Below are positions 56,079 to 63,061 of a stretch of 64,000 bases of DNA, piece by piece. The notes under the pieces were generated by a model. The model did no database searches and was not told the origin of the DNA. It saw only the letters and a program-made list of their open reading frames with translations. Numbering within the stretch: position 1 is the stretch's first letter; each line of letters opens with the position of its first letter. Source of the stretch: Opitutia bacterium ISCC 52 (GTDB lineage: Bacteria > Verrucomicrobiota > Verrucomicrobiia > Opitutales > UBA2995); contig CP076040.1 in the NCBI GenBank assembly GCA_014529675.2, positions 2,933,894-2,997,893 of the forward strand. Direction: 5' to 3'. The position numbers and the translations under genes are program-made.

Positions 56079-56849
56079 ATGCTCGCCAACCATTCTAAAA
56101 GTCTATTCTTCAAATGGGTAACGCACCTATTTTTGGTAGCTTGCGTTCAGTCTGCTCTTATAGCCCAAGTGGAGCACCCTTCGCATCCAACGCACCATGA
56201 TTTGAGCTACGAACATAGCTCCAACTGGTTCACATCTGCCATGTGGGACAGCAAATACATTTCGGAAGGCCGAGACAATTTGGAAGATGGAGGCCTTGGC
56301 TCTGTTGCCCTGGAGTGGAACCAACATTTCGAAAACGGTGGCGAAATGATTCTCGCCGGGTGGTATGCAGAAGGAACGAGCGTAGATTACTCTGAGCTAA
56401 ATCTCGCTGCAGCCTACGGATGGTCACTCGAAAATTTGGATATTGCTATTGGTTATACCTGGCTGGATTTTGCTGAAGACAATGAATCCGATAACGAATT
56501 CGTACTTGTGCTGGGAACCACTGCTTTTAATGACCTGGATTTCGGAGCGGCATTTGTCTACTCCGACGAAGCAGGAGGAACCTTTATCGAACTCGTAGTA
56601 TCACGATCCTTCGAAGACTCCTCCGTTAGCTGGACTCCCTACCTGCTGATTGGTATCAATGAAGGTTACGTGGCAGATGAGCACGATGGCTTAAACAACC
56701 TTCAGATGGGTTTAGAGATCTCAACCCCGTTAAATGACAGCGTAGAATTAGGCGGGTATATAGCCTACACAATTGGTTTGGATGAAAAAGCAGGCGAGTC
56801 ACTGGACGATATATTCTGGGTCGGTGTAAATCTCGGCTGGGGAAATTAA
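56079..56849 (+). CDS. Outer-membrane beta-barrel protein (TorF/putative porin-like)
   Basis: 256 residues with a signal peptide (WVTHLFLVACVQSALIAQ). From residue 40 it is a chain of short amphipathic strands with Gly/Asp/Glu turns (GGEMILAGWYAEGTSVDYSE, LDIAIGYTWLDFAEDNESD, VSWTPYLLIGINEGY, VELGGYIAYTIGL), ending in an aromatic/Gly strand (VGVNLGWGN). YISEGRDNLEDGG near the start recalls TorF-type proteins. It probably inserts in the outer membrane. A copper- or metal-pump remnant follows on the other strand. Confidence 0.75.
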   Translation: MLANHSKSLFFKWVTHLFLVACVQSALIAQVEHPSHPTHHDLSYEHSSNWFTSAMWDSKYISEGRDNLEDGGLGSVALEWNQHFENGGEMILAGWYAEGTSVDYSELNLAAAYGWSLENLDIAIGYTWLDFAEDNESDNEFVLVLGTTAFNDLDFGAAFVYSDEAGGTFIELVVSRSFEDSSVSWTPYLLIGINEGYVADEHDGLNNLQMGLEISTPLNDSVELGGYIAYTIGLDEKAGESLDDIFWVGVNLGWGN

Positions 56850-56868: not shown

Positions 56869-57207
56869 TTATACCGGGTCCGCTTTCCCAAACCACGAAT
56901 AGAGACTGGGGATAACTATCATATTCAAGAAGGTCGATGTAATGAGGCCACCGAGAATAACGATCGCCATCGGCGCCTCCAACTCCTTACCGGCTTCTCC
57001 TACCCCCAAGGCAAGTGGAATGAGTGCTAATGCAGCTGTCAGGGCCGTCATGAGAATAGGATTAAGCCTTTCAAGCGATCCCTGCCTGACCGCATCCTGC
57101 AACGGCTTTCCTTCATTCATCAGTGTTCGAATGTGAGAAATGAGCAAGATGCCATTTCGAGCGGCGATACCAAAGAGCGTTATGAAGCCCACCAATGATG
57201 CGAGACG
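56869..57207 (-). pseudogene. CusA/CzcA-type RND efflux pump, C-terminal remnant
   Basis: About 112 residues: RLASLVGFITLFGIAARNGI, LLISHIRTLMNEGKPL, ERLNPILMTALTAALALIPL and AIVILGGLITSTFLNMIVIPSLY are the last helices of heavy-metal RND pumps, which are about 1000 residues long. A TGA lies 4 codons before RLASL, and nothing pump-like precedes it. The upstream frame is a different sequence, so the rest of the gene was deleted. Confidence 0.88.
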
Positions 57208-57532: not shown

Positions 57533-59134
57533 ATGTTCGCATTTGTCTCCTTCCTTGCTTTTACCATCTTTGTAGCGGTCATCTCGTGGTGGAAAACCCG
57601 TAATGATGATCAAAGTATTGGAAGCAATTATTTCCTGGCAGGCCGCAGCCTTCCCTGGTTTGTCGTAGCGGGTTCCTTAATGCTGACTAATTTGTCTACC
57701 GAACAATTAGTGGGCCTTAACGGTGGTGCCTACATGAACGGATTTGTCGTCATCGCCTGGGAGGTTATCGCCGCGGCGGCCTTGGTTATGATGGCTTGGA
57801 AATTCCTCCCCATTTACTGGTCTGGTCAAATCACAACCATTCCAGAATTCCTGGAAAAACGCTTCGATAGGCAGACACGTACTTACGTGAGTGTGTTGTT
57901 TCTTTTAGCCCTGGCCCTAAGCTTCCTGCCTTTCATTCTATACTCAGGTGCACTCGCCATGAACGGCTTGTTCGGCGTTTCCGAAGTGTTCGGAATTTCA
58001 GAACAACAATCCGTGTTCATCATGGTCTGGGCTATTGGCATCATTGGAGCGCTCTACGCCATCCTGGGCGGACTTGAAGCCGTCGCGATCTCAGATACCA
58101 TCAACGGAGCAGGATTACTGATTGGCGGACTCCTCATCCCCTTCCTGGGTTTGATGGCCCTGGGTGATGGAAGCATGTTGGGAGGTATTGATCGCATCGT
58201 TGACAATCAACGCCCCATGCTCGACCCGGTGGGTGACAGCGATTCAGATATTCCCTTTGGAGTACTCTTCACCGGCATGCTCATGGTGAATATGTTTTAT
58301 TGGTGCACCAACCAATTCATCATTCAACGGACCTTCGGTGCTAAGTCGCTTAAGGAAGGACAAAAAGGAGTATTGGGAGCTGCGTTTCTAAAACTCTTAG
58401 GACCTCTCTACCTCGTGCTTCCCGGGGTAATCGCACTCGAGCTATTTGGACCTGAGCTACAAAACGGCGACCTCGCCTACCCTATGCTCGTAAAGGCAGT
58501 ACTTCCGACCTGGTTAGTCGGGTTCTTTAGTGCCGTGATGTTTGGAGCCATATTGAGCTCATTCAACAGCTGCCTCCACAGCTCGACGACGCTCTTCGGT
58601 CTCGATATCTATAAGAACCTGATAAACAAGGATGCCACCGACAAACAGGTGGTAAAAGCGGGCAAGATATTTGGTATCTGCTTAGCCTTGTTTGCGATGA
58701 TCGTGGCCCCTTTCATCGTGCACGCACCCGATGGCCTGTTTAATCTGATGAAGAAAATTGGTGCCACCTTCAGTGTGCCGGTTTTTGCACTGGTCGTCTC
58801 AGGTATCATGATCCGTCGCTCACCAGCGCTCGGAGCCAAAATCATCATTTTCGTAGGCATCAGTCTCTATATACTGTTCAACATGATCCTCCCAGGTATG
58901 GGTGTTCAGCTGGTTCACTGGCTCCATGTCACGGGTATGACTTTCGCTCTTCTTATCATCATTATGATGGTGATGAGCAAAACTCAACCGTCAGAGCCCA
59001 AGATAGATATTCCCTCTTTCTGGGGCACGCTTCATGGGGAAGGTACCTCCGAATATTGGTCGGGCACAAAAATTGCCGGTTCAGCTGTGTTGCTGTCAGT
59101 GGTAGCCATGTATGCCTTTCTGCATTGGTTCTAA
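57533..59134 (+). CDS. Na+/solute symporter (SSS family, SglT-like)
   Basis: 533 residues with about 14 membrane helices. SNYFLAGRSLPWFVVAGSLMLTNLSTEQLVGLNGGAY (about residues 28-64) holds the unwound first helix; STEQLVGLNG is the SglT-type sodium/sugar region. IPEFLEKRFD, ALYAILGGLEAVAISD and GAILSSFNSCLHSSTTLF are SSS motifs. Sugar or related solute uptake is likely; the Ser-rich helix 8 (SSFNS) is the usual Na2-site position. It is separated by 67 nt from tRNA-Ser. A second SSS protein lies at the right edge. Confidence 0.92.
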   Translation: MFAFVSFLAFTIFVAVISWWKTRNDDQSIGSNYFLAGRSLPWFVVAGSLMLTNLSTEQLVGLNGGAYMNGFVVIAWEVIAAAALVMMAWKFLPIYWSGQITTIPEFLEKRFDRQTRTYVSVLFLLALALSFLPFILYSGALAMNGLFGVSEVFGISEQQSVFIMVWAIGIIGALYAILGGLEAVAISDTINGAGLLIGGLLIPFLGLMALGDGSMLGGIDRIVDNQRPMLDPVGDSDSDIPFGVLFTGMLMVNMFYWCTNQFIIQRTFGAKSLKEGQKGVLGAAFLKLLGPLYLVLPGVIALELFGPELQNGDLAYPMLVKAVLPTWLVGFFSAVMFGAILSSFNSCLHSSTTLFGLDIYKNLINKDATDKQVVKAGKIFGICLALFAMIVAPFIVHAPDGLFNLMKKIGATFSVPVFALVVSGIMIRRSPALGAKIIIFVGISLYILFNMILPGMGVQLVHWLHVTGMTFALLIIIMMVMSKTQPSEPKIDIPSFWGTLHGEGTSEYWSGTKIAGSAVLLSVVAMYAFLHWF

Positions 59135-59201
59135 ATCAAGCCAAACAGAATACTTGACCTGGAGTTAGAGAAACGCATCTTCGATGCCTTCTGCTATTAT
59201 T

Positions 59202-59291
59202 GGAGAGATGCCAGAGTGGTCGATCGGGCCTGCTTGGAAAGCAGGTGTAGGGGAAACTCTACCGGGGGTTCGAATCCCCCTCTCTCCGCCA
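59202..59291 (+). tRNA. tRNA-Ser (GGA anticodon)
   Basis: Acceptor GGAGAGA pairs with TCTCTCC; D arm, anticodon stem CCTGC/GCAGG with loop TTGGAAA (anticodon GGA), a long variable arm (TGTAGGGGAAACTCTACC) typical of class II tRNAs, and T arm GGGGGTTCGAATCCCCC. Discriminator G, CCA encoded at 59289-59291. Reads serine codons UCC/UCU. Confidence 0.97.
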
Positions 59292-59302
59292 TTTGCCTAG
59301 TC

Positions 59303-62300
59303 GTGCCATTATATAGGAAGTTTAAAAGTGGCCCCTACCTCTTCTTAGCCTTTGTCCTTTTGAATGCGTCCCTAAACGCTGTAACCAATTGGGCCCTAAT
59401 GGATTTTACAGATTCTGATAATGTTTCGACCGAATTGGAGTTCGAGAAAAGCTTCCTAGTTCCCGTTAACTATCCTCCTGGAGCGACAAGTATCCAAGTA
59501 TCCCTAACGGCGAAAAATGCTGAGGATGAAGCGGTGGCATTATGGAATCCAAATAACCTGGGTCTAGCTATCGATGGGAACAATGAGGACTCTTTGGATC
59601 AGGGTGAAAAGTTAGTGCTTCAGCTTTCCCTGAGAGATCAACAAGGAGAAATACTAACTGGTTATGGTTTCAAACTCTTTCAGATGGGTCACTCAATTCA
59701 GACAGAGGTAGCTGACAACGCCCTACTCCTCGATGGAGAAAAGGACGGTCTCGCGGAGATTTCACTCAGCAAAGACTCAACGAGCACATCCCTTTGGAAT
59801 GCATACACGGTTTATGCGGATCAAGTATTCTCAGTACTCAACCAAAACACCGAGGCACCTTTTCACATTCAATCTATCGGACTGACTATTGTACCTCTGG
59901 TCCAAGAAACCATCTACCAACCGTCCAAGAAGTTCATCTACGAGGACTTCAACTTCCCAAGCGCGGGACTCATCGCTTCCAACACGGGGAGCCAAGTCTT
60001 CCAATCCTCCTTAACCACCGGTCATCCATGGGGCGGTTATACGGCAGGAAACAACTTCATTAGGACTCTCGGAGGTCAGATTGCTTTCGCGGGTGCAGCC
60101 AATACTCCCGGATCCTATATTTACACGATATTTCCCGAAGGGACTGACGCCATAGATCTTAGCAATCATGAATCTACGTTTAAGATCCGGGCCACCCAAG
60201 TCGCATCGAATCAAAAGCTCAGGTGGCTGGTCAGGGATGAGTCCCATAAATGGTTCTTATCTGATGAAACCTGGGAACCGACCCTTTCGACGACGGAAAA
60301 CGAACGCCATATGACTGCGTTCCCCGCAGCAAGGAATGATTGGCAATTGGTAACCAATGGCGATGCGCTCAATGCACTTGGCGAAAACGGAACCGCTCTG
60401 GAAACGGGAGAGTCCGCAACACCCGATCTGTCGCAGGTAAGTGGGTACGGAATTTATGTTTCTCAAGGCGATGGAATTAATTCCCTTTTTATTAGCGCAC
60501 TTCGACTGAGCGAATACGAACCCCTCATTTACTACCACCCCGCCAGGGCGTCACATTGGTTCGAGGGCCCGAACAACCTGAGGGTAGGTCTCTCCGATAT
60601 GTCGGGAGCAGCATTCAATGAAATGTATTGGAATACCGATACCAACATCATCGCTTCGCAAAACGGACGACAAGCACAGTATGCCTTTCGTTCCTTCCAT
60701 CACAACGGACGTTGGAACCCGACCCAAGCTGGCTACGACGAATTCTATGGTATGCCCACTCCGGTAAGAACAAGTATCTCCAGCCTGGGTGACGGCCCCC
60801 GCTATGAATGGGGACCCACCCCGATGTCCAATTGGCATGGAGATGGACATTTCGATTTTGTAGAAAACGAGGACCTGACATTGGGAAGTCCCTACAACCA
60901 TATATTTGGCTGGAGAGACCGACCGTCTTATACGGACGATGACTTTATTGATGAAAGCGATCGAAGCCAGGCAGACGAAGTGATATCCGATTTCGACCAA
61001 GGGGGTTTTGTTGAAGATGTTTCCTCATCTACAGACCAAGATGTTTTGGCCATCCGGTTTAATTTGTATCAGAATTTTCCCCGACTCACCCATAACACAC
61101 TGCAGTTTAACGAGGAGGCTATCATCTTTGACACGAGGCGCAGTCCCGAGACCGAGGAGCCACTTATTGACGAAAACCGTACATCCGCAGACCTTTCATC
61201 CGTTCTACCGGGTGCTCAGGCGACAACAGCTACGGACATGACCGAAGTTCCTTACCGTTGGTCAGATCGCCTGGATGTGCTGGCCGCCAATTTCCGGTAC
61301 CTTTGGAATTGGGAATCCAATAGCCAACAATGGACAGTGACCGACCTGGTAAACGAAGAGGGTACTATTCCAGCCTCCAATGATTCCTTTTTCAGCATAA
61401 TAGCCAACAGCCCAAATCCGACAGACGCAGAAACTGCCCAGGCGATCGCCTTGTATTACCCGTCCTGGTCGGAACTTAATCAATACCCCATTCAAGGTAT
61501 TGATCGGCAAACCGGTGAAATTGTCTATCAGGAAGATCGACTCGACCAAGTAGTAGCAAGCGCGATCCAAACCGTGCGAGGGGGATGGATAGGCCCAAAT
61601 GATGAAATTTCAGGAGAATTTACACGTCGGCAACTCGGATTAAATTATGGGGGGATTCTAAGCCCGGACCATACTCCTATCGACGTATACGAAAGGCTCC
61701 GACAGGAGTTCTTTTGGATTTTCGGCACGCCCACTGCCCTGGTGGCGTCTATTCCGGACCTTGAAGCTCAATTCATGGATCCGCCTGAAGAATTGCCTTC
61801 CCGTGCACAACTAAGGGCAATGCCGGACATGGATTCCCTCATTGATGGTTCGATCAACGTGCCGACCAATCAGGAGCTCACCTGGTGGGCCGCTGTAGGC
61901 GCAGACAAATATCACATTTACCTAGGAAAGGATCCCGTAGAAATTGCCACCGCAGATACGAACGCTCCAAGCTACATCGGGGAATCAACGACCAACCGTA
62001 TTTTTCCAACCAACCTGGAGACCAACACCACCTATTTCTGGCGGGTAGACTCAGAGAACTCCACCGGAACAACCCTAGGAGATGTGTGGAGATTCAAGAC
62101 CTCCACACCCGCATTTTTTGAACTCGCGACCCTTGTGACCCTCAACCTTGGATCTGGCGCCACTTCGGCGGCGGAAGGCGTTTCTTCGCATACAGCAATT
62201 TCGGACAATATTCTGGTAGCAACCGGTGCCCATACAGTCGAATTACATATCACGGGATCCAGCGATGGTAGCGAAGCCAATATTCGTAAAGTTCCGTCAG

Positions 62301-63061
62301 GAGTTGCAGCCAATGGACTGGTGGTTGTCGATGGGAACCTTAACGATCTCGGCGTCGGTGAAAGTCTTCACTTTGACTTGCAAGTCAAACGTGGTGAACA
62401 GCCCGCGCACAGCGGCATGTTTCAGATGCTCGATTTCAGCTACAAAGGCAGAACAAACAACGATCAACGTGACTACACGATTACCGATAGTTCAGGGACG
62501 GTACTGGTAGAAGAAACTAATTTCGACCCAATCAATTACGATCCCACAACGCCAAGGCTTCCATTCTCTCCCGGCGAAGGACTTGATTTCAGTTGGAACC
62601 GCACCGGTGCTGGCGGAGCGATCCTCTCCATAGAGACAATCACTCTTCTCATTACCGAGGTCTTTGACGAAGAACCCACTTTCACGGCTCAAGGAACACC
62701 GCACAGCTACCTAGAGCTATACTATAGCGGACTGGACGCGGACGAAGATTACGCAATAGCAGAACTTTCCGACTCGGATGGAGATGGACTCCGCGTATGG
62801 GAAGAGTACCAGTTCGGGACTAACCCGCTAGATGGCACTTCAGTCACACGGATCATCCGTACCGATCTAACGGATACCAATCAGCTCAAACTGCACTGGA
62901 AATCCAAACTGGGCAAATCCTACAGCATCTACCGAAATAGTTCTTTGGACGAAAACGGCTGGCATCTTATTGATTCAGGAATCGAGTCAACACCCCCCGA
63001 GAACGAGAGAGTCATTACCCTCAGCGAACGCCCTCGGTTCATAAGAATCTCTTCGGAATAA
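59303..63061 (+). CDS. Large secreted multidomain protein, function unknown
   Basis: About 1252 residues. The long frame opens inside the tRNA, so I place the start at GTG 59303, which gives a signal peptide (PYLFLAFVLLNASLNA) 11 nt after the tRNA. A lamin-tail-like region (MDFTDSDNVSTELEFEKSF, VALWNPNNLGLAIDG) is followed by a possible sugar-binding-like region (FIYEDFNFPSAGLIA, LRWLVRDESHKWFLSDETW). Next is a long domain that I cannot assign (YHPARASHWFEGPNNLRVG to ARAQLRAMPD, about 445-860), a fibronectin-like domain (TYFWRVDSENSTGTTLGDVW) and a calcium loop (DSDGDGLRVWEEYQFGTNPL). The C-terminal module YSIYRNSSLDENGWHLI is the Verrucomicrobia 'xYxVexSxDLxxW' type. It may act on or bind a polysaccharide; there is no catalytic motif that I can name. 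Confidence 0.7.
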   Translation: MPLYRKFKSGPYLFLAFVLLNASLNAVTNWALMDFTDSDNVSTELEFEKSFLVPVNYPPGATSIQVSLTAKNAEDEAVALWNPNNLGLAIDGNNEDSLDQGEKLVLQLSLRDQQGEILTGYGFKLFQMGHSIQTEVADNALLLDGEKDGLAEISLSKDSTSTSLWNAYTVYADQVFSVLNQNTEAPFHIQSIGLTIVPLVQETIYQPSKKFIYEDFNFPSAGLIASNTGSQVFQSSLTTGHPWGGYTAGNNFIRTLGGQIAFAGAANTPGSYIYTIFPEGTDAIDLSNHESTFKIRATQVASNQKLRWLVRDESHKWFLSDETWEPTLSTTENERHMTAFPAARNDWQLVTNGDALNALGENGTALETGESATPDLSQVSGYGIYVSQGDGINSLFISALRLSEYEPLIYYHPARASHWFEGPNNLRVGLSDMSGAAFNEMYWNTDTNIIASQNGRQAQYAFRSFHHNGRWNPTQAGYDEFYGMPTPVRTSISSLGDGPRYEWGPTPMSNWHGDGHFDFVENEDLTLGSPYNHIFGWRDRPSYTDDDFIDESDRSQADEVISDFDQGGFVEDVSSSTDQDVLAIRFNLYQNFPRLTHNTLQFNEEAIIFDTRRSPETEEPLIDENRTSADLSSVLPGAQATTATDMTEVPYRWSDRLDVLAANFRYLWNWESNSQQWTVTDLVNEEGTIPASNDSFFSIIANSPNPTDAETAQAIALYYPSWSELNQYPIQGIDRQTGEIVYQEDRLDQVVASAIQTVRGGWIGPNDEISGEFTRRQLGLNYGGILSPDHTPIDVYERLRQEFFWIFGTPTALVASIPDLEAQFMDPPEELPSRAQLRAMPDMDSLIDGSINVPTNQELTWWAAVGADKYHIYLGKDPVEIATADTNAPSYIGESTTNRIFPTNLETNTTYFWRVDSENSTGTTLGDVWRFKTSTPAFFELATLVTLNLGSGATSAAEGVSSHTAISDNILVATGAHTVELHITGSSDGSEANIRKVPSGVAANGLVVVDGNLNDLGVGESLHFDLQVKRGEQPAHSGMFQMLDFSYKGRTNNDQRDYTITDSSGTVLVEETNFDPINYDPTTPRLPFSPGEGLDFSWNRTGAGGAILSIETITLLITEVFDEEPTFTAQGTPHSYLELYYSGLDADEDYAIAELSDSDGDGLRVWEEYQFGTNPLDGTSVTRIIRTDLTDTNQLKLHWKSKLGKSYSIYRNSSLDENGWHLIDSGIESTPPENERVITLSERPRFIRISSE

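Follow-up and report, generated by a model that had tools for sequence, protein, structure and literature searches.

A reading frame of 1252 codons, encoding a secreted multi-domain protein, begins 11 nt behind a tRNA-Ser(GGA) gene in the 64,000-nt stretch of DNA analysed here (the window), and it is most likely expressed by read-through from the promoter of that tRNA. The joint explanation that best fits the evidence, which we hold with somewhat more confidence than doubt, combines this read-through with an exported product that acts on a polysaccharide and with a placement behind the tRNA that is specific to the present lineage. The features at the junction are as follows.

59154..59159, + strand: -35 element TTGACC of the predicted tRNA-Ser(GGA) promoter; TTGAC at the same offset (within 1 nt) in 5/5 family genomes and in 17/29 tRNA genes of the genome
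59176..59181, + strand: predicted -10 element CATCTT after a 16 nt spacer; CAT[C/T]TT with the same spacing in 5/5 genomes; 3/6 positions agree with TATAAT
59202..59291, + strand: tRNA-Ser(GGA) with encoded CCA (ARAGORN; Rfam over cut-off)
59303..63061, + strand: ORF of 1252 codons, secreted multi-domain protein (open frame; homologue under purifying selection)
59303..59380, + strand: putative signal peptide, residues 1-26 (read from the sequence; the N-terminus of the homologue is also hydrophobic and precedes a conserved NW..DFTD)

The tRNA gene, its promoter and the reading frame behind it

The tRNA-Ser(GGA) gene was located by ARAGORN and matches the Rfam tRNA model over its cut-off, and exactly 11 nt (tttgcctagtc) separate its CCA end from GTG 59303, from which the frame runs on the + strand to the stop at 63061. 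An earlier, sequence-only reading had described a giant secreted protein at this distance from a tRNA-Ser, over the range 59202-63061, with GTG 59303 as its best start. The gap, which is unusually short, the tRNA and the 1252-codon frame are confirmed, and residues 1-26 (VPLYRKFKSGPYLFLAFVLLNASLNA) do read by eye as a signal peptide. ‘Giant’, however, is too strong a word for 1252 amino acids, and although 63061 is the ORF stop, 59202 is the start of the tRNA and not of the ORF.

GTG 59303 is the probable start codon. The frame is open backwards into the tRNA as far as GTG 59216, but a start there was rejected because the tRNA would be translated, and ATG 59399 was rejected because the signal peptide would be lost. 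No Shine-Dalgarno match precedes GTG 59303 (duplex energy +1.9 kcal/mol), and such a match is also missing from several other well-formed genes in the window. The GC content of the ORF (49.6% vs. 47.3%) and its codon use are ordinary for the window over the full length, and the RNA fold at the junction is no more stable than its shuffles (z = −0.19).

Ahead of tRNA-Ser(GGA), the pattern TTGAC[C/G]-16 nt-CAT[C/T]TT occurs at one position in the present genome (G000) and in four others of the family (G001, G003, G005 and G007); this footprint sits in the 75 nt before the tRNA, and the flanking sequence differs among the five genomes. Judged by the footprint, TTGACC-16-CATCTT (59154-59181) appears to be the tRNA promoter, with a -10 element that is weak relative to the sigma-70 consensus. 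TTGAC also lies about 40-50 nt upstream of 17 of the 29 distinct tRNA genes of the genome (loci L041-L070), a promoter class whose -10 element barely resembles TATAAT.

Between 59050 and 59450, a scan for the sigma-70 consensus found no + strand promoter, though such a scan would miss a non-consensus promoter inside the tRNA gene. A scan of the same interval found no + strand terminator, and so none was recognised between the tRNA and the ORF on their shared strand. Because the tRNA promoter is conserved, because no promoter or terminator was found between, and because a promoter within the 11-nt gap would start transcription past GTG 59303 and so remove the signal peptide, read-through is the simplest account. 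Transcription would begin at the tRNA promoter and RNA polymerisation would continue, with no recognisable terminator in its path, through the tRNA into the ORF. Once the tRNA 3' end had been processed, an mRNA with a short leader would remain, about 11 nt ahead of GTG 59303, to be translated without a Shine-Dalgarno sequence.

Unlikely, in our estimate, is a promoter of the ORF's own, situated within the tRNA gene or in the few bases just ahead of the start codon and working independently of tRNA transcription. The interval 59050-59450 holds no promoter-like site on the + strand and the tRNA gene sequence is constrained by its own function, although alternative sigma factors or non-consensus promoters could escape a scan confined to the sigma-70 consensus. 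Genes for polysaccharide use are usually regulated by their substrate, and a constitutive tRNA promoter would give no such control, which speaks for this alternative; yet a promoter past the CCA end meets the difficulty of the lost signal peptide. The sequence-only reading had argued that there is no room for a separate promoter and that the mRNA may be released from the tRNA precursor or driven from inside the tRNA. The conserved promoter upstream of the tRNA and the lack of one between tRNA and ORF agree with the first part, at the level of sequence, whereas the linkage itself proved not to be conserved.

The homologue and the placement behind the tRNA

Among 88 genomes, one full homologue was found, in G007 of the same family (53% identity, cut off at the contig end). 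Of two scans of genome contigs, the first gave no match and the second gave the G007 homologue alone; no homologue was found in plasmids. None of the five other genomes of the genus, of which some are incomplete, has the gene, and of two further genomes of the family beyond the genus one lacks it. Over an identity of 52-53%, the ORF and its homologue differ with pN 0.33 and a saturated pS of 0.81. The coding capacity of the ORF is thus real, since pN lies well under the saturated pS. The central region is 65% identical (pN 0.23) and the other regions 34-51%; being the most constrained, the central region is probably the functional core.

These comparisons bear on whether the gene is alive. A rearrangement that moved it behind the tRNA may have cost it its promoter and left it silent or barely expressed, the long ORF being a recent relic. 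The patchy occurrence in the genus and family, the missing Shine-Dalgarno match and a homologue whose leader is unrelated would all fit such a history, but 1252 codons remain open, codon use is normal throughout and the signal peptide is intact. Constraint relative to the homologue is evident too, though this contrast does not date its end. We therefore think a relic quite improbable and retain expression by read-through as the preferred reading.

In the genomes compared, the linkage of tRNA and ORF is not conserved, and the placement appears to be peculiar to the present lineage. In G007, no tRNA lies in the 39 nt before the first possible start of the homologue (69 nt before its ATG), where the contig ends. 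G007 carries its tRNA-Ser(GGA) on a different contig, where a relative of the window gene at 56079 comes before it and a toxin-antitoxin-like pair after it. In two genomes of the genus, G001 and G003, the tRNA is followed by a different sequence and, beyond that, by a gene for an alpha/beta hydrolase. G005 has the same upstream order as the window (hydrolase, membrane protein, DCC-like protein, outer-membrane-like protein, sodium symporter, tRNA), and its contig ends within the tRNA. From this comparison of loci, the tRNA and its upstream side are common to G005 and the window, and the ORF is a lineage-specific neighbour that would have arrived behind the tRNA in the present lineage only. The arrangement was seen in one species of the sampled genomes. 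The sequence-only reading had named a lack of conservation of this linkage, together with an independent transcription start, as what would count against it, and on the linkage the comparison went against it.

Two observations were made at these loci. The pair behind the G007 tRNA-Ser(GGA) reads as HigBA-like and follows directly on the opposite strand (L013:571-1163). In the window, the minus strand carries at 56869-57195 a 108-aa piece of an RND efflux pump, by reading its C-terminal end; it is flanked by the outer-membrane-like gene and the symporter and was not seen at the matching place in G005.

The 3' ends of tRNA genes are common attachment sites, and the genes behind tRNA-Ser(GGA) differ among related genomes, as they would if this 3' end were an attachment site and the ORF the cargo of an integrated element. 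The sequence-only reading had raised this idea and proposed a search downstream for a repeat of the tRNA 3' end. No such repeat was found: across the whole genome, copies of the 21-nt 3' end with ≤3 mismatches occur in tRNA genes only, and in the 52.8 kb downstream no match to any part of the tRNA exceeds 11 nt, a length within the 9-13 nt given by shuffled sequence. Among downstream ORFs over about 50 kb, no integrase was recognised (by reading, with Pfam on a selection), the housekeeping genes dapF, pyrD, hemB and cysS (by reading) lie about 45 kb downstream, and composition is normal. Integration at the tRNA is thus highly improbable.

Domain layout and the central family

The mature part of the protein can be divided as follows.

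59387..59926, + strand: N-terminal region, residues 29-208, probably a beta-sandwich; 34% identity to the homologue, no Pfam match
59927..60502, + strand: second region, residues 209-400, possibly lectin/CBM-like from its appearance; 48% identity to the homologue, no Pfam match
60503..61804, + strand: central domain, residues 401-834, of a putative secreted family with GRxxQ...NPTQAG...GDG...DE..Q..E..S.FD; profile matches in two genomes of another class, six-row alignment, profile-profile match to the NPVQGG family
61805..62125, + strand: fibronectin-III-like domain, residues 835-941; PF16656 E 0.00089, under the curated cut-off, and 35-40% identical stretches in other large ORFs
62126..62692, + strand: C-terminal region, residues 942-1130, probably beta-rich; no credible Pfam match
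62771..62833, + strand: TSP3-like calcium-binding repeat, residues 1157-1177; PF18884 E 0.13 on the whole protein and 0.014 on the piece, under the cut-off

The central region has no match in Pfam, NCBIfam or PDB. Profile searches of the phylum (388 genomes), of one order (43) and of one class (346) were positive in two further genomes only, both from a different class within the phylum (lowest E 1.9e-24); G160 has two copies and G295 has three. A six-row alignment retains GRxxQ, NPTQAG, GDG and DE..Q..E..S.FD, and GRxxQ followed by NPxQxG recurs in that order in secreted proteins (alignments A5 and A7). On these matches, the central region appears to belong to a rare, undescribed secreted family with no curated entry in the databases searched. 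The view that its 400 residues match no family thus stands for curated families but not for sequences at large, given the homologues in other genomes. The G160 and G295 copies lie near sulfatases, a GH78 rhamnosidase, GH99-like proteins, an aldo/keto reductase and a sugar transporter. A frameshift divides one G295 member (L093:8527-10919) into two ORFs (595 and 225 aa), and the same genome also has intact copies.

A second unnamed secreted family, GRxIQQSYY...NPVQGG (L093, L096-L104), appears to be remotely related to the central domain (hhalign 65%, E 6.3e-5, in a single comparison), and the joint alignment of the two families is colinear. The match came from an eight-row alignment of the NPVQGG family; one sequence by itself gave none. 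In both families the GRxxQ and NPxQxG motifs are colinear, and the C-terminal stretch is similar. In contrast to the central domain, NPVQGG proteins are about 280-300 aa long, do not have the inserted GDG and DE..Q..E segments, and are 14-20% identical to it; they too are missing from Pfam and PDB.

Structure prediction for the central region, also proposed by the sequence-only reading, gave only a hint of a galactose-mutarotase-like beta-sandwich. AlphaFold reached pLDDT 31 from two sequences, and a model from 14 sequences had pLDDT 51.5 and pTM 0.52. The best PDB match of this poor model in Foldseek had E 0.0054 and TM 0.28/0.40. Galactose-mutarotase-like beta-sandwiches (aldose 1-epimerase family, e.g. 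3k25, 2htb) were among its best matches, as were beta domains of GH65/GH38 type enzymes, glycoside hydrolases in which one domain is mutarotase-like. Unlike this structural resemblance, the sequence of the central domain has no match to such proteins in the PDB.

Neighbourhood and comparison with other tRNA-led genes

The gene borders a cluster for uptake and degradation of a uronate-containing polysaccharide. Downstream lie a sodium symporter, a GntR/LacI-type regulator, dehydrogenase- and isomerase-like genes, a chondroitinase-B-like protein (PL6-type), a heparinase-II/III-like lyase, a GH76/GH88-like protein, a DUF2264 protein and, by reading, a large outer-membrane-receptor-like protein. 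These lyase and hydrolase neighbours suggest that the substrate is a polysaccharide that contains uronate, for instance alginate. Most of the adjoining polysaccharide genes run on the other strand, so the ORF stands outside their operon. From its neighbourhood, the protein probably acts on polysaccharides and is a putative enzyme; once exported, this multi-domain product would bind a polysaccharide and probably cleave or trim it.

This is a single, modest case: an exported accessory protein that probably depends on a tRNA promoter for its expression. As a system it is ordinary, and it is mildly interesting for its new domain and its mode of expression. It would carry more weight if it exemplified a promoterless gene that came to be expressed by landing behind a tRNA, and the central domain leads to an unannotated, probably carbohydrate-active family that is directly testable biochemically. 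A broader generalisation, which we put forward as a tentative possibility and rather doubt, is that tRNA promoters in this order routinely drive genes 10-30 nt behind them, that the ORF is a recent recruit to this arrangement and that its central domain is an unnamed family of polysaccharide-active enzymes.

Two other short gaps occur in the same genome: ilvH lies 18 nt past tRNA-Val(UAC) (G000:C1:1230496-1230572; L043, L110), and a glycosyltransferase-like ORF of 366 aa lies 22 nt past tRNA-Ser(GCT) (L064:375-1475). Such recurrence is in keeping with read-through at tRNA-Ser(GGA). Across the order, ilvH, the acetolactate synthase small subunit gene, comes next after tRNA-Val(UAC) and on its strand in 19 of 30 loci from at least eight families (L110-L139), with a gap of 12-27 nt in 16 of the 19 and with ilvC visibly next in most cases. 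A valine tRNA thus heads genes of valine biosynthesis with no promoter room between, and the region upstream is conserved within the family. A literature search found no mention of tRNA-Val(UAC)-ilvH-ilvC. It resembles tRNA-Ser-ORF in its short gap, shared strand and lack of promoter room but, unlike it, is conserved over at least eight families and serves a housekeeping pathway, and it looks the more interesting finding of the two.

Our literature search on tRNA-mRNA units gave one usable precedent. In the tufB operon of enteric bacteria (thrU-tyrU-glyT-thrT-tufB), tRNAs and a protein gene form one unit with the promoter before the tRNAs (PMC6134099). The proposed tRNA-Ser-ORF unit would work in the same way, a promoter upstream of the tRNA driving the protein gene. 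The tufB unit, however, is an established one with a gene for an elongation factor, whereas tRNA-Ser-ORF is lineage-specific, encodes an exported accessory protein and is only predicted to be co-transcribed.
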